Origin: Comamonas terrigena NBRC 13299
GTDB lineage: Bacteria > Pseudomonadota > Gammaproteobacteria > Burkholderiales > Burkholderiaceae_C
Reading direction: 5' to 3'
Assembly: GCF_006740045.1 (NCBI RefSeq)
Contig: NZ_AP019749.1
Location: 2,561,001 to 2,625,000, forward strand
DNA length: 64,000 nucleotides
Each line of letters begins with the position of its first letter. The stretch's first letter is position 1. The position numbers and the translations under genes were made by a program. The notes beneath the pieces were generated by a model. It did no database searches. It saw only the letters and a program-made list of their open reading frames with translations, and was not told the origin of the DNA. Positions 29,532 to 36,358 of the stretch are shown here, one piece after another.

Positions 29532-30329
29532 TCAAAAACCGGAATGCATCCAGCGGGAAGTGTCCTGCTGCATCACCACATCCATGTCCAGCCCCATGGC
29601 CACCCCCACCTCGGAAGGGAAGGACAGCGCGGTGCTGCGCTCGTCCCACTGGGCGGCCTGGGTGCGGATGCGCCACACCGCCAGGTGCAGCACGCCGGCC
29701 ATGGGTTCGAACTGGTCGAAGGCCAGCGGATTTTCCATGCACTGCAAGCTGTCCACCAGCTCGCGCGGCAGGCGCCACTGCTTGAGCAGTGCCGCAGTGG
29801 TGTGCGTGGCGCAGTGCCCCCAGTGCCGCTCCTCCATGCGCGCGCGGCGCGGGTCCCAGATGTCCATGGCCTCGTCCAGCGGCGCGGTCGCCACCGACTG
29901 GGTGTGGTGCAGCATCAGTTGCCCCATGCCGTGCAGCAGCCCGGCGGCATAGGCGGCGCTGCCGTCCATGTGGGCCATGCCCGCCAGGGAGCGCGCCAGC
30001 TTGGCCGTCATCAGGCTGTACCGCCAGAACGGCTCCAGCGCCATGCCCTGCACCACCCGCACTGCCATGCCTTTCTGCGCCCCGTTCACCAGCATGCGCA
30101 GCTGCGACACCCCCAGCAAGGCCAGCGCCTGGGGGATGCCGCGCACCATGCCCGCCATCTGGTACTCCGGCGAATTGGCCAGCGCCAGCAGCTTGGCGGC
30201 CAGCACCGGGTCGCAGCCAAACAGCTGGTTGACGCGGCGCAGATTGGGCATGTCACTGAGCAGCTCGCTCAGCAGCAAGGCCACAACCCGCGGCTGGCAG
30301 GGCAAGGCAAGGTCTTCGGTGGTCTGCAT
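29532..30329 (-). CDS. HDOD domain protein
   Basis: HDOD domains are non-catalytic HD-related modules found in signalling proteins. This 265-residue, single-domain protein shows the family pattern: PNLRRVNQLFGCDPVLAAKLLALANSP (in part), the ALALLGVSQLRMLV helix, and AAYAAGLLHGMGQLML, which carries His and Gly but not a full HD metal site. It lies downstream of the two-component genes on the same strand, with an 81-bp AT-rich gap that may hold its own promoter. Its target is unknown; a link to motility or c-di-GMP control is common for this family but not shown here. Confidence 0.87.
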   Translation of the reverse strand: MQTTEDLALPCQPRVVALLLSELLSDMPNLRRVNQLFGCDPVLAAKLLALANSPEYQMAGMVRGIPQALALLGVSQLRMLVNGAQKGMAVRVVQGMALEPFWRYSLMTAKLARSLAGMAHMDGSAAYAAGLLHGMGQLMLHHTQSVATAPLDEAMDIWDPRRARMEERHWGHCATHTTAALLKQWRLPRELVDSLQCMENPLAFDQFEPMAGVLHLAVWRIRTQAAQWDERSTALSFPSEVGVAMGLDMDVVMQQDTSRWMHSGF

Positions 30330-30410: not shown

Positions 30411-31277
30411 TCAAGAAATTGCATCGGCGGGCACCACCACCCGCACGCAGGTGCCGCGGCCCGGGCTGCTCTCCAGCGCAAACTGCGCCCCGATGCGCTG
30501 GGCACGGGCCCGCATGCCGTCCACCCCCCAGCCCCGCCCGGACTGACTGCGGCCAGCGCGTGGCACGGGCGCGTCTTCCATGCCGCAGCCGTCGTCCGCC
30601 ACCTCCAGGGTCCAGGAACCGACGGGCACGGGCTGCAGTTCCACGCGCAGAGAGGTCCCCTTGGAATGCTGCAAGGCATTGCTCATGGCCTCTTGCGCCA
30701 GAAAGGCCAGCTGCAGCCCTTTTTCCGCACGCGGGCTGGTGTCCGCCTCGTCCATCGGCATGTTCCACTGCATGACCATGCCACGTTCGCTCAGCAGCGG
30801 CTGCAGACGCCAGCGCATGGAGGCCAGGCGCTCGATCAGCGAGGCGTCCGCGTCGTCCAGTGCTTCCATCTCCACGCGCAGCGCAAACATGGCGTGTTCC
30901 ACGGCGTGCCGCACCTGCGCCAGATTCGGCTGCGGGGTCTCCAGCAGCGCCAGGGCCCCGGACAGGTGGCTGCCTGCACCATCGTGCAGGTCCTGGGCAA
31001 TGCGTTCGCGCTCGGCCCGCACTTCGGGCGAAACCCGCAGGCTGCTGCGGCGGCGCCAGCGCAACACCTTGGGCCACATCAGCCCGAACCAGGTGGCGGT
31101 GAGCAGGTGCAGCACCACGATCACGGCCCAGTTCTGCCATTCGTACAGCGCATCCGGCGATGCTGCCCCCAGATGCCAGTACAGGATGGCGGCAATCTCC
31201 AGCAGCCACAGCGCCGTGCCCGCCCCCAGCATCCAGGCGGGATGGCGCTGCGACCTGCGCTGGTGACGCCGCGGCAT
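30411..31277 (-). CDS. NarL/UhpB-type sensor histidine kinase
   Basis: A 288-residue membrane kinase. Two helices (TALWLLEIAAILYWHL and VIVVLHLLTATWFGLMW) leave almost no periplasmic loop, so it probably senses in or near the membrane. The HisKA_3 phosphoacceptor box is RERIAQDLHDGAGSHLSG (His near residue 99), followed by HATPase boxes: AQEAMSNALQHSKG, ADDGCGM, GWGVDGMRARAQRIGA and PGRGTCV. It starts 14 bp after the response regulator gene, so they form one unit. It is divergent from the CsgG-like operon, which is its likely target through the regulator. Confidence 0.92.
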   Translation of the reverse strand: MPRRHQRRSQRHPAWMLGAGTALWLLEIAAILYWHLGAASPDALYEWQNWAVIVVLHLLTATWFGLMWPKVLRWRRRSSLRVSPEVRAERERIAQDLHDGAGSHLSGALALLETPQPNLAQVRHAVEHAMFALRVEMEALDDADASLIERLASMRWRLQPLLSERGMVMQWNMPMDEADTSPRAEKGLQLAFLAQEAMSNALQHSKGTSLRVELQPVPVGSWTLEVADDGCGMEDAPVPRAGRSQSGRGWGVDGMRARAQRIGAQFALESSPGRGTCVRVVVPADAIS

Positions 31278-31291
31278 TCCGGCTTCGGCCG

Positions 31292-32053
31292 CTACAGCAG
31301 CCCCTGCGTCAAGGCCGCACGCACCGCCTGCGCCCGGCTGCGCACCTGTAGCTTGCGGTAGATGTTGCGCACATGGGTGTTGACGGTCAGCAGCGCAATT
31401 TCCAGCCTTTGCGAGATTTCCTGGCTGGTATAGCCATTGGCCACGTGGCGCAGGATGTCGCGCTCGCGCTCGGAGAGTTTTTCCGGCACACAGGCCTTGG
31501 CGTCGCGCTCCCCGCAGTTGCCGCGCAACCGCTGCAACAGCCGCCGTGCCAGGTGCGGCGTGATGGACGCGCCGCCATTGGCCACCTGCAGCACCGCCTG
31601 CACATAGCTGCCAAACCAGGAGTGCTTGACCAGATAGCCGGCCGCCCCCTGCTCGATCGCGCGCAGCAGCTGCGTATCCCCTTCCATCACCGAGATGATG
31701 ACCGTCTCCGCCGCAGGGCGCAGCGCACGCTGCAGGCCCATCAGGTCAAAGCCAGTGCCGTCTTCCAGGTTCAGATCGGCCAGCAGCACATCGAAAGCCT
31801 CCGCCCGCATCAGGCGCCGGGCTTCCTTGACGCTGGCGGCCTGCCCGACCAGCAAAACGCGCGAATCCCCCATCAGCTCCCGCCCTACCACGCTGCGGAT
31901 GTGCGCGTCGTCGTCCACCAGCAGCACACGCACCGGCTTCTCGCTCTGGCCCACCATGAAATCGGGCCACAACGACCTGTCCACAGCACCGGCACTGCCC
32001 GCCGAAAGCAGTGCAGCGTCGCAAACATACGGAGCTTCTTGTTCGGTGTGCAT
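31292..32053 (-). CDS. LuxR/NarL-type response regulator, likely controller of the divergent CsgG-like operon
   Basis: Receiver domain at about residues 40-155 with the acidic pocket LLVDDDAH, phosphoacceptor Asp in LLADLNLEDG, Ser/Thr in VIISVMEG and Lys in GYLVKHS. A LuxR-type helix-turn-helix is at about 190-250 (LSERERDILRHVANGYTSQE, then VNTHVRNIYRKLQVRSR). The ATG at 32053 gives 253 residues; the N-terminal 40 precede the receiver and are unusual. It is transcribed away from the repeat-protein operon across 326 bp, a layout typical of a local regulator, comparable in logic (not in sequence order) to CsgD of curli. Confidence 0.92.
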   Translation of the reverse strand: MHTEQEAPYVCDAALLSAGSAGAVDRSLWPDFMVGQSEKPVRVLLVDDDAHIRSVVGRELMGDSRVLLVGQAASVKEARRLMRAEAFDVLLADLNLEDGTGFDLMGLQRALRPAAETVIISVMEGDTQLLRAIEQGAAGYLVKHSWFGSYVQAVLQVANGGASITPHLARRLLQRLRGNCGERDAKACVPEKLSERERDILRHVANGYTSQEISQRLEIALLTVNTHVRNIYRKLQVRSRAQAVRAALTQGLL

Positions 32054-32379
32054 CACGGTGCGCCCTCCATCACTGTCTTTCAATGCTTACATGTAGTCAC
32101 TACCTAATTTTTTACCGCGTTTCCTGCCTCCCGCCTGTCAGCAGAAGCCTCGACCCCATTGCCACCGCACTCGGAAAGCGCGCGTTTTCCCGGAGGTGTG
32201 CAGACGTAGTACCCACTTACCAAATTTACGGGATTGGTTGTCAAAGCACGCAAACGGACACTTTCAACCAGGCCAGCAAGTGTTGCCAACCACGCGGACC
32301 AGCACCCACAGGCCGACCCGCAGAGATGGGCTCTGCGAGTCAACGGATGGACGTCACGAAATCTTCTAGGAGCGCAACC
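32054..32379. promoter_or_regulatory. Divergent regulatory region with a repeated CACT-ACC-AATTT motif
   Basis: This 326-bp gap is far more AT-rich than its surroundings. Two similar elements occur in the same orientation: GTAGT then CACTACCTAATTTTTTACCG (32093-32117), and GTAGTACC then CACTTACCAAATTTACGGG (32206-32232). They are 113 bp apart, one near each divergent start region, as expected for sites of the LuxR-type regulator encoded next door. The long leader before the repeat-protein gene (about 150 bp after the second element) ends in CTAGGAGCG, a good ribosome site. Confidence 0.55.
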
Positions 32380-32850
32380 ATGAAAAAAGTAATCGCAGTC
32401 GTTTCTCTGAGCCTGCTCGCCGCCTCTGCCTTCGCTGGCAAGCCCGGCGGCCACCCCGGCGGCCACGACGATGACAAGGACACCGGCCCCGCCATCTACC
32501 TGGACGGCAAGACCGTGCAAGTGACGTCGCTGAGCTGGAGCGCTGTCAGCAACAAGGCCTCATCCGGCGGCGATGCCCGCCAGAACATCTCGTCTAACAC
32601 CGGCAACGTGAACGTGGGTGCCGCACTGACGCAGATGACGTTCGGCAAGCTGGCCTACATCGGCAACAAAGCTGAATCGGGCGGCGATGCACGCCAGAAC
32701 CTGGCCACCAACGTAGGCAAGGTCGACATCGCCAAGCAACTGACCCAGGTGGTGGCGCTGAAGGGCTCGGCCGTGATGAACCACGCTTCCAGCGGCTCGT
32801 CGGCGGTGCAGAACATCTCCACCAACAACGGCTGCCAGACCTGCCAGTAA
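32380..32850 (+). CDS. Small secreted protein of 38-residue repeats, candidate fibre subunit
   Basis: I know no named family for this 156-residue protein. It has a Sec signal (MKKVIAVVSLSLLAASAFAG, cleavage near 19), then a Gly/His/Asp-rich stretch (PGGHPGGHDDDKD), then three gapless repeats: residues 48-85, 86-123 and 124-156. The core of each is N-K/H-A-x-S-G-G-x-A-x-Q-N-I/L-S/A-S/T-N-x-G, and the first two end LTQ. Regular Asn, Gln, Ser and Gly with alternate hydrophobics recall curlin and holdfast-type amyloid repeats, though the exact curlin motif is absent. The end GCQTCQ has two cysteines. It is first in an operon with a CsgG-like secretion lipoprotein, so it is the best candidate for the exported subunit. 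Confidence 0.82.
   Translation: MKKVIAVVSLSLLAASAFAGKPGGHPGGHDDDKDTGPAIYLDGKTVQVTSLSWSAVSNKASSGGDARQNISSNTGNVNVGAALTQMTFGKLAYIGNKAESGGDARQNLATNVGKVDIAKQLTQVVALKGSAVMNHASSGSSAVQNISTNNGCQTCQ
32521..32847 (+). repeat. Three 114-bp coding repeats (38 residues each, last one truncated)
   Basis: Units are 32521-32634, 32635-32748 and 32749-32847. The protein units align without gaps; SGGDARQN is identical in units 1 and 2. The DNA copies have diverged, so the duplication is not recent and the pattern has been kept by selection. Confidence 0.85.
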
Positions 32851-32859
32851 GGCCAGGCC

Positions 32860-32883
32860 CTGCCGCAACCCCGGTTGCGGCAG
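32860..32883 (+). terminator. Strong hairpin after the repeat-protein gene, no T-run
   Basis: CTGCCGCAACC pairs with GGTTGCGGCAG (11 bp possible, tight loop). With no T-run it is more likely an mRNA-stabilising or partial-termination hairpin, which would give more of the first protein than of the downstream export proteins. Confidence 0.55.
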
Positions 32884-32957
32884 ACGGCTGTCAGTGCGTG
32901 GAGCCACCACCCGGCTGACTCCACGCCCTTCCCCCTCATCGCCTCCCGGAGGTTCCC

Positions 32958-33371
32958 ATGCCTGCTTCCCCTCTTTTGCGCAGCCTCGTGATGGCCAGCT
33001 GCCTTGGCGTGACCGGACTCACGATGGCAGCGCCTGGCGAAGACACCATCCAGTTGCAGAACCCGGTGGAACATCTGCAGCTGCCCACGGGCAGCACCAC
33101 CAAGCCCCAGGGTCTGGGCAGCGATGCGGACGGCGTGCCCATGCACCTGCGCGCCAAGATCGCACGCTACGAAGCCCAGACCTTCAACGACCAGACCAGC
33201 GGCATCTACACCGATGGCGATGTGAACCGCATCGTCGGTGCACAGGCCAACCGCAAGACCTGCATCCAGGATGTGGGCAGCAACACCAATGCCACAGGCG
33301 CCACCCGCACGGGTAACGGACAGCAGCAGATCGTGGTGTTGCGTGGTGATTTGGTGAACATTTGCCGCTAA
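32958..33371 (+). CDS. Small secreted protein, possible assembly partner (HfaA/CsgF-like role guessed)
   Basis: A 137-residue protein with a Sec signal (SLVMASCLGVTGLTMAAPGE, cleavage near 25). I do not recognise a family with certainty. The middle has a run LRAKIARYEAQTFNDQTSGI, and the C-terminal third, CIQDVGSNTNATGATRTGNG followed by QQQIVVLRGDLVNICR, has two cysteines and an Asn/Thr/Gly-rich, beta-prone character like the tails of HfaA-type and other surface proteins. An excellent ribosome site (CGGAGG) precedes it. Its place between the repeat protein and the CsgG-like gene suggests a minor subunit or nucleator. Confidence 0.8.
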   Translation: MPASPLLRSLVMASCLGVTGLTMAAPGEDTIQLQNPVEHLQLPTGSTTKPQGLGSDADGVPMHLRAKIARYEAQTFNDQTSGIYTDGDVNRIVGAQANRKTCIQDVGSNTNATGATRTGNGQQQIVVLRGDLVNICR

Positions 33372-33428
33372 AAGCAAAGCAGCGCCCGAGCACCAGGGCG
33401 GCCACTAGGAAAACATCGAGAGGGAATC

Positions 33429-35078
33429 ATGCGCACCACCTTCGCACCCAGGAACCTGTGTCGTCCTCGCCTGCTCGCCGTCACCAGCCTGCTCAGCGCA
33501 GCAGGCCTGCTGACAGGCTGTGCGCCCATGAATCCGGCCAAGGATGCGGGCTACCACGCGCAGGCCAACGAAATCAACCGGCCAGTCGTGCGCCCCACGC
33601 GGTCGATCTCCAGTTTCTCCGATTCGCTGATGTGCATGGACCACCTGTTCCGTGAAACCGGCATGAGCACCGTGCTGATCACCAGCAAGTCCATCCCCGA
33701 CTACTCCGGCAAGATTGCCGTAGCCACCAAGGAAATGATCGTCACGGCGCTGTCGCAGATGTCGCGCGTCAGCAATGCCTTCCGCTTTGTGGACTATGAA
33801 GTCAATATCGCCCAGCAGGATACGGTGCAGAACCTGACCACCCTGCTGCTGAACAACAACCAGATACGCCTGCAGCGCCCCGCCCTCTATGTGTCCGGCG
33901 CCGTGGCCTTTGTGGACCAGCAGGTCACCGCCAACAACGTCGACATGGGCACCTCGGCCTCCCGCCTGGAAACCGGCTACAGCCAGAGCCGCCGTTCCTC
34001 GGTCATCGGCATGGAACTGCACCTGGGGGATTTCCGCAGCCGCACCATCATTCCCGGCCTGGACTCGGCCAATGAAATCGTCATCGGCAGCGGCGGTCAG
34101 GGCCTGGACCTGTCGGGCCGCATCGGCAACTACGGCGTGCAGTTCAATGTGGGCCGTGATTACACCCAGGGCTCGGGCCCGGCCATCCGCACCCTGGTGG
34201 AGCTGGCCATGATCGAGCTGCTGGGCAAATGGGCGCGTGTCCCCTACTGGCAATGCCTGACGCTGGAACAGACCCACCCCGAATTCATGCGCCAGATGCG
34301 CGAATGGTATGAAGATGCCAGCCCGGCCACACGGGGCCAGCTGGTGCGCCGCTCCCTGCTGCGCCGCGGCTATCTGCTCACGGAGAACCCGGACGACGCA
34401 ACCTTGCACACGGCACTGGCCCGCTTTCAGACCGATGAACGCATGGTCGTCACCGGCGTGGTGGACTTCCCCACCTATGAACGCAGCCTGCGCAATTTCG
34501 TCACCCTCTCGCCCGACGGCCACCTGCAGCGCATCGGCTGGGAAACGGCACCGAACAACAACACCACGGCGGCCGCCATCACCACCGACAAGCAAGGCCA
34601 GCCGCCCGAAGTGGATCTGCAGGTGGAAAACATCATGCTGGGCCGCTCCGGGTTCGAGCAGGGCGAACAGATCTTCCTGTCCGCCACCGTCTCCCGCTCC
34701 TCCTATCTGTCCTGCTACATGCGCAATGCGCGCAACGAAGTCATCCGCATCCTGCCCAATGCCACCAACAAGTCCGGCTGGGTGCCAGGCAACCAGGCGG
34801 TGCGCATTCCGGACTGGATGAGCCCCACCCCGGGCTTTGTGATGGATGCCGGCCTGCCGGGCCAGGAAACCGTGGGCTGCTTTGCCAGCGACAAGAACGT
34901 CAGCACGCAATTGCCGGCATCACTCCAGAAACCGGCCTTCCAGCCACTGCCCGGCATCACCAGCATGGAGCAGATTGCCGCGCAGATGCGTGAGGCAGCC
35001 GGGACCGGCTCCACCATCGGCCTGGCCCAGCTGCAATGGGAGGTCACGCCCAAGCGCCCCACCGCCCCCGGCAACTGA
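33429..35078 (+). CDS. CsgG/HfaB-like outer-membrane lipoprotein with added peptidoglycan-binding and DUF4384-like domains
   Basis: Lipobox LLTGC places the acylated Cys at residue 31. Residues about 60-275 resemble the CsgG/HfaB fold (SGKIAVATKEMIVTALSQMS, RPALYVSGAVAFVDQQV, GMELHLGDFRSRTIIPG, RTLVELAMIELLGKWARVPYW), which in curli forms a nonameric secretion channel. Residues about 305-360 look like a peptidoglycan-binding domain (LVRRSLLRRGYLL, TLHTALARFQTDERMVVTG). Residues about 395-480 resemble DUF4384 (GFEQGEQIFLSATVSRSSYL, then ARNEVIRILPN). At 549 residues it is about twice the size of CsgG. It is the third gene of the operon and the likely exporter for the two small proteins. Domain calls are by eye. 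Confidence 0.82.
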   Translation: MRTTFAPRNLCRPRLLAVTSLLSAAGLLTGCAPMNPAKDAGYHAQANEINRPVVRPTRSISSFSDSLMCMDHLFRETGMSTVLITSKSIPDYSGKIAVATKEMIVTALSQMSRVSNAFRFVDYEVNIAQQDTVQNLTTLLLNNNQIRLQRPALYVSGAVAFVDQQVTANNVDMGTSASRLETGYSQSRRSSVIGMELHLGDFRSRTIIPGLDSANEIVIGSGGQGLDLSGRIGNYGVQFNVGRDYTQGSGPAIRTLVELAMIELLGKWARVPYWQCLTLEQTHPEFMRQMREWYEDASPATRGQLVRRSLLRRGYLLTENPDDATLHTALARFQTDERMVVTGVVDFPTYERSLRNFVTLSPDGHLQRIGWETAPNNNTTAAAITTDKQGQPPEVDLQVENIMLGRSGFEQGEQIFLSATVSRSSYLSCYMRNARNEVIRILPNATNKSGWVPGNQAVRIPDWMSPTPGFVMDAGLPGQETVGCFASDKNVSTQLPASLQKPAFQPLPGITSMEQIAAQMREAAGTGSTIGLAQLQWEVTPKRPTAPGN

Positions 35079-35087
35079 AAGACCGCC

Positions 35088-36269
35088 ATGCGCCTTGTAC
35101 CCACCGCCCATGGACAGACTGTCGGCGGCGGGGCCTGGAACACCTCCAGGCTCTGCGTGCCGCTCGGGCTGGGGCTCGCCCTGCTGTGCAGCCCTGCCTT
35201 CGCACAGCCCCGACAAAGCCCCAGCCCCACCATCACCTTCCAGGAAGCGCAGACACCGCCCCGCATCGATGCGGACCAACTGCGCGGCCGCCGCCCCGCC
35301 GTCCAGCTGGAGGCCGACCAGCTCGGCAAGTCCACTGCCATCCAGCAGCTGCAGGCACAGGCCACGGCACCGCTGCCCAAGGGCGAGCGCACCGAGGCCA
35401 GCATCCGCGCCCAACGCGAAGCCGCCTGGCAATGGGGGCTGCTGCAACTGCACGGCCTGCACACGCCCCTGCAACCGGTACAGGCCCAGCAAAGCTTTGA
35501 GCGCGCCCAGGCACTGGGCCACCCCCTGGCAGCCGCCGGCCTGGCCTGGTGTGCCATCGATGGCTGCGGCCAGCGCCCCGAGCCCGAGGCCGCACGGCAA
35601 TGGATCCAGGCACTGCGCAAAACCGCCCCGGGCCGCGCCGCCTATTTGGAATGGCTGCTGCTCGACGATGTGGCGCCGCTGGATGAGGCCGTGCCGTCCA
35701 CTGCCCGGCGTGAAGGCATCAACACGGCCGGACGCAAACAGCAGCTGCTGCGCCAGGCGGCGGAAGCCGGCGATCCCAATGCCCGGGTGGAACTGGGCAT
35801 GGAACTTGCCGCCCAGGGCAAGACCAATGAAGCCATGGAACAGTTCCGCAGCGCCGCCAAAAGCTCGCAAGCGGCCAAACACAATCTGAACGTGCTCAGC
35901 GACCAGAAAGGCACCTTCAAATCACGCCCGTCCGGCAACGCCGGCCAGGCCGGTGGTGCCTGGCAGACCTTCAAGCAGGCCCGGGTCTACCACCGCGGCG
36001 AAGGCGTGCCCGCCAACTACACCGAAGCGATCCGGCTGTACAAGCGCGCCTCCGACATGGGCAGCGAGCCGGCCAAGCGCATGCTGGCCCTGATCTATTC
36101 CCGCCCCACGCCCGCCGGCGGTATCGATATCGGGTGGATGCAGCAGCTCGCCTACATGGATGTCACCCAGGATGGCGCCATCCCGCTGACGGCACCGACC
36201 GCCCCCACCAGCCTGACCCGCGACCCTACCCCGCTGTGGGATTACATCGCCCCCAGGTGGCGCAACTGA
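35088..36269 (+). CDS. Sel1/TPR-like repeat exported protein of the CsgG-like operon
   Basis: A 393-residue protein starting nine bases after the CsgG-like stop. A long N-region precedes a signal sequence (CVPLGLGLALLCSPAFAQ, cleavage near residue 40). Sel1-type helical repeats are visible: SFERAQALGHPLAAAGLAWC, LLRQAAEAGDPNARVELGME, and AIRLYKRASDMGSEPAKRML with YHRGEGVPANYTEA before it. Such repeats mediate protein contacts; a periplasmic scaffold or CsgE-like adaptor for the channel is a reasonable guess. A strong bidirectional terminator follows, so the operon has exactly four genes. Confidence 0.82.
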   Translation: MRLVPTAHGQTVGGGAWNTSRLCVPLGLGLALLCSPAFAQPRQSPSPTITFQEAQTPPRIDADQLRGRRPAVQLEADQLGKSTAIQQLQAQATAPLPKGERTEASIRAQREAAWQWGLLQLHGLHTPLQPVQAQQSFERAQALGHPLAAAGLAWCAIDGCGQRPEPEAARQWIQALRKTAPGRAAYLEWLLLDDVAPLDEAVPSTARREGINTAGRKQQLLRQAAEAGDPNARVELGMELAAQGKTNEAMEQFRSAAKSSQAAKHNLNVLSDQKGTFKSRPSGNAGQAGGAWQTFKQARVYHRGEGVPANYTEAIRLYKRASDMGSEPAKRMLALIYSRPTPAGGIDIGWMQQLAYMDVTQDGAIPLTAPTAPTSLTRDPTPLWDYIAPRWRN

Positions 36270-36312: not shown

Positions 36313-36340
36313 AAAAAAGCGGCCCAGTGGGCCGCTTTTT
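36313..36340. terminator. Bidirectional terminator between the CsgG-like operon and tex
   Basis: AAAAAGCGGCCC (36314-36325) pairs with GGGCCGCTTTTT (36329-36340) around a 3-base loop; T-runs exist on both strands. It ends the plus-strand operon and the minus-strand tex gene. Confidence 0.93.
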
Positions 36341-36358
36341 CTTTCAGAGAGCAGGGCT

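Follow-up and report, generated by a model that had tools for sequence, protein, structure and literature searches.

The question raised by positions 30411–36269 of a 64,000-nucleotide stretch of the Comamonas terrigena NBRC 13299 genome (contig NZ_AP019749.1, positions 2,561,001 to 2,625,000; hereafter the window) is whether a block of six genes, among them a CsgG-like lipoprotein and two small secreted-looking proteins, sp1 and sp2, forms an export system of its own, and how such a system relates to curli and holdfast. We conclude that the locus is probably a dedicated surface-export system working through a channel of the CsgG/HfaB superfamily. This reading is carried by the homology of the lipoprotein to HfaB and its predicted fold, by a gene set kept across related loci, and by a conserved element and predicted RNA hairpins around sp1. 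The six gene positions given in the original prediction were confirmed on the sequence, and the locus is laid out as follows.

30411–31277, minus strand: sensor histidine kinase, HisKA_3 type with HATPase_c (Pfam/NCBIfam), with a short N-terminal membrane part seen by eye
31292–32053, minus strand: NarL/LuxR-type response regulator (Pfam/NCBIfam domains), divergent from the operon
32087–32105, plus strand: conserved element TTACA-N7-ACTACCT, candidate operator or promoter, 293 bp 5′ of sp1
32380–32850, plus strand: sp1, secreted-looking repeat protein with three 38-residue repeats
32851–32892, plus strand: strong predicted RNA hairpin directly 3′ of sp1, candidate attenuator or mRNA stabiliser
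32958–33371, plus strand: sp2, small secreted-looking protein with two invariant cysteines
33429–35078, plus strand: CsgG/HfaB-like lipoprotein, with a channel domain (residues ~59–279), a peptidoglycan-binding-like region (307–351) and DUF4384 (409–489)
35088–36269, plus strand: Sel1/TPR protein (Pfam Sel1), secreted-looking and probably periplasmic
36313–36341, no strand assigned: palindrome with A/T ends and a T-run, a likely two-way terminator between the operon and a convergent Tex-like gene, found by eye

The third protein of the operon is a lipoprotein whose sole Pfam domain above cut-off is DUF4384 (PF14326; 46.5 bits against a cut-off of 27). The Pfam CsgG family, PF03783, did not match it, and the NCBIfam HfaB model matched residues 27–111 with an E-value of 7e-4 and 18.8 bits, short of the equivalog cut-off of 300. 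Single profile comparisons with hhalign linked the whole family to HfaB with a probability of 99.1% and to CsgG with 94.0%, and the Comamonadaceae members alone to HfaB with 96.8%. The HfaB set comprised nine sequences, four of them above the NCBIfam cut-off, and the CsgG set ten, nine of which have a CsgF-like neighbour; one HfaB locus, L093, was excluded on account of a misplaced start. A protein named from Comamonas terrigena is 97% identical to the lipoprotein, and a sequence search of the PDB gave one match, with an E-value of 1. Structure prediction against CsgG, proposed earlier as a check, returned the CsgG/HfaB channel fold rather than an unrelated one, and the channel model has the two long β-hairpins expected to enter the membrane. 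A first AlphaFold2 model, built from 42 close relatives, was poor (predicted local distance difference test, pLDDT, 56.2) and was kept out of the fold searches. Together, the profile comparisons and the predicted fold support the assignment of this protein to the CsgG/HfaB channel superfamily, nearer HfaB than CsgG. The description of the lipoprotein as CsgG-like therefore stands at the level of profile and predicted fold, although PF03783 is silent and HfaB is the closer relative.

Beyond residue 279, the lipoprotein continues for ~270 residues, with the peptidoglycan-binding-like region, whose match is under the Pfam cut-off, followed by DUF4384. The window protein has a lipoprotein signal, LTGC, at residues 28–31, and a simple lipobox pattern matched 22 of the 23 sequences, the sequence from L019 being cut off. 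The position of the pattern in L007, L008 and L022 (residues 3–6) is not credible; L008 has LLSGC further on. PF03783 matches two other open reading frames of the same genome, L001 (~4,422,193) and L002 (~2,366,000), which stand in different gene company; the L001 frame is followed by two small lipoprotein-like genes, judged by eye.

Scanning a collection of genomes turned up 22 related loci. Their records are titled Comamonas, Acidovorax, Delftia, Polaromonas, Corticibacter and Diaphorobacter, together with four metagenome-assembled genomes titled only Comamonadaceae, Burkholderiales, Gammaproteobacteria or similar, and one record titled Pantoea sp. 18069. The kinase, regulator, sp1, sp2 and lipoprotein genes keep their order and orientation in 20 of the 22, and the Sel1 gene was matched in 21, which places the gene set beyond chance. 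The full set of six is present in 19 loci, the others (L009, L014 and L019) being incomplete where contigs end. A gene-neighbourhood search had been suggested, and it bore out a set conserved with its two-component system in the Comamonadaceae. Of the 20 loci where upstream sequence is available, 11 show none of the six outer neighbours of the window block (some flanks are short), and the block therefore looks like a unit; 8 show two or more, and L011 has a 30% partial match only.

Farther afield, a lipoprotein profile (E ≤1e-5) found members in 14 of 300 genomes of the order and in 8 of 369 genomes of the class, the own genome included and some of them distant. Other genomes of the genus carry a second locus type (L109–L113), in which the lipoprotein is 38–39% identical and the repeat proteins are different. 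A pentapeptide-like protein was called downstream in 4 of these 5 loci (Pfam-checked in L109 only), and the genes called up to five places from the channel gene gave no match to the kinase/regulator pair. The gene context of the distant loci was read with a home-made open-reading-frame picker, and the neighbour calls there are thus approximate. In L067, where curlin-like repeats accompany a distant channel gene, a caspase-domain/Sel1 protein and an autotransporter-domain protein lie next to that gene (L067:2137–5414). Genes resembling extracytoplasmic-function sigma factors by eye lie near other distant channel genes (L071:10195–10782 and L072:4041–5323), where the Comamonadaceae have the two-component system. 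In two farther relatives, L074 and L075, adjoining reading frames exceed 1,200 residues and show a 28-residue period.

Neither sp1 nor sp2 matched Pfam at E ≤1. After residue 31, sp2 has two cysteines in all 21 homologues, one 32–40 residues from the end and the other next to last, and its C-terminal stretch reads CIQDVGSN...QIVVLRGDLVNICR. A profile search gave 496 relatives at E ≤1e-3; every named entry among the 120 listed is annotated as hypothetical protein. The Comamonadaceae sp2 is related, with a profile probability of 96.6%, to the small protein found next to distant channel genes. Using models that excluded the locus tested, we found sp2 in 10 of 12 nearer-group distant loci (E 9e-13 to 0.048), in all five second-type Comamonas loci and in none of six farther-group loci; in L066, it sits 1.3 kb away. 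Stray matches (E 0.014–0.039) arose at sites lacking the motif, so that the weak matches in L066, L070 and L071 rest on the C-terminal motif, read by eye; for L067, the model still contained the near relative L068, which aided the match. The search also matched the second-type repeat protein in five loci (E 0.0006–0.016).

That the first small gene encodes a repeat protein, as had been claimed, holds: the best repeat lag of the window sp1 is 38 residues, equalled in 0 of 500 shuffles. A period of 38–40 residues recurs in 21 of 21 homologues, with 0 of 500 shuffles equal in 17 and p between 0.002 and 0.048 in the remaining four, and longer relatives carry extra repeat units by eye. The window protein has two cysteines in all, both C-terminal (NNGCQTCQ), and in every one of the 21 homologues the cysteines number two or three and all lie clustered at the C-terminus. 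From locus to locus, the sequences of the repeat proteins differ. The curlin core QXGXXN, counted with CsgA (10 copies) and CsgB (3) as controls, does not occur in two second-type repeat proteins. Six nearer-group loci were also tested: repeat proteins of L067, L068, L070 and L071 contain 4–12 copies each, against shuffle means of 0.14–1.05, that of L069 has a similar form one residue longer, and that of L064 has a single copy. A scan run without shuffle control, which also lists wrong frames, placed repeat-like frames no more than 3.5 kb from the channel gene for 9 of 12 nearer-group loci; L070 has a repeat protein according to the QXGXXN test.

The four operon genes are co-oriented, as predicted. 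The tight spacing also predicted applies to the gaps between sp2 and the lipoprotein gene (57 bp) and between the latter and the Sel1 gene (9 bp), but the sp1–sp2 gap, at 107 bp, is not very tight. The RNA of this first gap (32851–32957) has a folding z-score of −3.34. Of the 21 loci, 17 were tested, and z fell under −2 for the gap after sp1 in 14 of them, against 2 of 17 for the next gap (four of these latter gaps were trimmed to 150 bases). Such a predicted hairpin would suit a cargo gene that is strongly expressed and has an attenuator or stabiliser behind it. At the other end of the operon, the shared terminator of the original prediction is recognisable by eye as the palindrome with its T-run, but a simple terminator scan did not report the site.

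Upstream of sp1, TTACA-N7-ACTACCT occurs with at most two mismatches in 18 of 21 loci, 253–319 bp from the start codon. With the chosen starts, its distance from sp1 is less variable than that from the regulator (26–397 bp). Over 15 less redundant loci, the mismatches sum to 21, against a shuffle mean of 63.8 and a minimum of 55 in 200 shuffles, a comparison that is optimistic since the pattern was picked after viewing the same sequences; inside the channel genes of 14 of those loci, the sum was 54. The element surfaced only when a palindrome was tried, and was then tested in the present form on related loci that are not independent. In the 4.67-Mb genome, the exact element occurs once, at the present locus. 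With at most one mismatch, there are 8 matches in the genome, against 4 for a backwards control pattern; at the same tolerance, shuffles of the window gave a mean of 0.04 matches. The other seven genome matches are an identical sequence, TAACAGTCTTGTACTACCT, six of them in two runs spaced ~5.6 kb apart; we presume that these copies may belong to ribosomal RNA operons. Enrichment of k-mers 5′ of sp1 was not above shuffles, nor was a second box picked by eye ~110 bp 5′ of sp1 (GACACTG..CCAGACAA), which was dropped. Sigma-70 promoter-like sites numbered 0 against 0.7 in shuffles, and terminator-like sites 6 against 4.7 (standard deviation 2.0), about equal.

Several observations weigh against a dedicated surface-export system, among them the missing constriction loop. 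The CsgG stretch QYKP..S.FST, in which we place Tyr66, Asn70 and Phe71, is missing in the window family and the nearer distant relatives. Counted by hand on the printed sequences, the span between the conserved Asp in the D-x-S/T-G motif and the conserved Met that follows measures 13 residues in the window, 25 in CsgG (L100), 21 in HfaB (L090) and 20 in the distant subgroup L061. Those three residues form the three rings of the E. coli CsgG constriction, as described in PMC7304575. By this residue count, the eyelet-bearing loop is absent from the window family. The Comamonadaceae profile alone reached only 3.9% against CsgG; the Foldseek matches to CsgG (E ≤1e-3) had low template modelling (TM) scores by target (0.41–0.58) with root-mean-square deviations of 9–13, the best targets, one apart, being truncated-CsgG chains (TM 0.55–0.58); and the hairpin tips have a pLDDT of ~53–72. 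Secretion signals were read by eye or with a simple pattern, QXGXXN is found in 0 of 21 Comamonadaceae sp1 proteins, and the lipoprotein (E ≤1e-20) is patchy, being detected in 18 of 37 genomes of the same GTDB genus, the own genome included, and in 19 of 61 genomes searched overall. The identities that position would suggest for sp2, HfaA or CsgF, gained no support, with profile probabilities of 1.6% and 0.3%, and sp1 reached 0.2% with HfaD; with only three HfaA and two HfaD sequences, taken by position, the Hfa comparisons are weak tests.

Three alternatives were considered. The principal one makes the lipoprotein a ring or lid in the periplasm that has the CsgG fold, as PelC and FlgT do, supports polysaccharide export or a flagellum and exports no protein; sp1 and sp2 would then be periplasmic structural proteins. 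PelC, FlgT and other CsgG-fold envelope proteins share the fold, but they gave a weaker match, and the present model differs in its long hairpins and the locus in its gene company; we consider this explanation unlikely. A diverged HfaABD holdfast anchor, with the lipoprotein as HfaB, sp2 as HfaA and sp1 as HfaD holding a surface polysaccharide, would account for HfaB being the closest profile match, for a small secreted-looking gene directly 5′ of the channel gene, as in three Hfa loci (HfaA by position), and for a repeat-rich secreted-looking protein in both sets. The missing likenesses to HfaA and HfaD and the HfaB score far from its cut-off speak against it, and the locus departs from the HfaABD of Caulobacterales in a loop eight residues shorter than in HfaB of L090, in the peptidoglycan-binding-like and DUF4384 regions, and in the kinase/regulator pair and Sel1 protein. 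A true HfaABD identity is thus disfavoured on sequence grounds, and we regard it as quite improbable.

Curli, the type VIII secretion system, has a LuxR-type regulator, csgD, beside its operon, comparable to the regulator here, and inspection by eye showed LuxR-like genes close to csgG in L100 and L104. A true csg system that escaped the sequence searches would further agree with the predicted channel fold with its two β-hairpins, and with the curlin-core repeats beside some distant relatives. However, CsgE (PF10627) and CsgF (PF10614), both detected in the E. coli control, and the curlin repeat (PF07012) gave no match in the own genome at E ≤1, in line with the earlier statement that these components are unrecognisable; sp1 repeats at 38–40 residues without QXGXXN, and the loop is 12 residues shorter than in CsgG. 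On these grounds we reject true curli, which has a very small probability. Of the curli- or holdfast-like character originally proposed, the channel fold is retained, but sp1 and sp2 show no likeness to CsgF or to the few HfaA and HfaD sequences compared. By its sequences, the locus thus falls in the CsgG/HfaB superfamily yet lacks recognisable curli components, misses the HfaB equivalog score and shows no likeness to those HfaA or HfaD sequences. A parallel by description only is the MafA pathway of Neisseria, an outer-membrane lipoprotein that has a cargo of its own and is likened in its properties to CsgG by the authors of PMC7738311; the MafA cargo is a toxin there.

If the locus is a dedicated surface-export system, as we favour, the lipoprotein would reach the outer membrane and oligomerise, with two β-hairpins per subunit crossing the membrane, and its periplasmic extension may link the pore with the cell wall or with cargo. 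The cargo would be sp1, which probably crosses unfolded and then stacks as a β-rich, possibly adhesive surface element with a C-terminal cysteine cap. As a conserved helper, sp2 may serve as plug, nucleator or anchor, and the Sel1/TPR protein would provide a periplasmic scaffold. The two-component system would activate the operon, with the element 293 bp 5′ of sp1 as its probable site of action, and the hairpin after sp1 would hold cargo mRNA in excess over channel mRNA. A bolder proposal, which we advance tentatively and consider doubtful, is a third CsgG-type export branch beside curli and holdfast. Here, an eyelet-less, peptidoglycan-tethered pore with sp2 as obligate cysteine-pair partner would export rapidly evolving proteins with repeats of 30–40 residues (cysteine-capped in Comamonadaceae), which would form a disulphide-fixed, β-solenoid-like surface fibre. 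Such a branch would extend over Betaproteobacteria, other orders of their GTDB class and some Alphaproteobacteria, and could explain some of the surface amyloids or adhesins that are still unassigned in Comamonadaceae and Rhodocyclaceae.

The CsgG eyelet is usually regarded as the feature that controls amyloid export. If the favoured reading is true, the present family, which lacks the eyelet, would offer a test of the need for one in export. Bacteria from water, soil and sludge would then possess a surface-export system so far undescribed, and proteins entered in databases as hypothetical or DUF4384 would gain both sp2, as a conserved partner, and a handle on their regulation. Among the matches listed from the open-licence literature, no paper on the present locus was found by title and start of abstract, and the same holds for the papers on DUF4384; none was found there that joins DUF4384 with CsgG, or curli, CsgG and amyloid with Comamonas.

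Outside the block, an HDOD-domain gene (29532–30329) lies directly downstream of the kinase gene and is placed likewise in L003, and an HDOD gene adjoins the Tex-like gene instead in L005, L007, L008, L014, L016 and L022.
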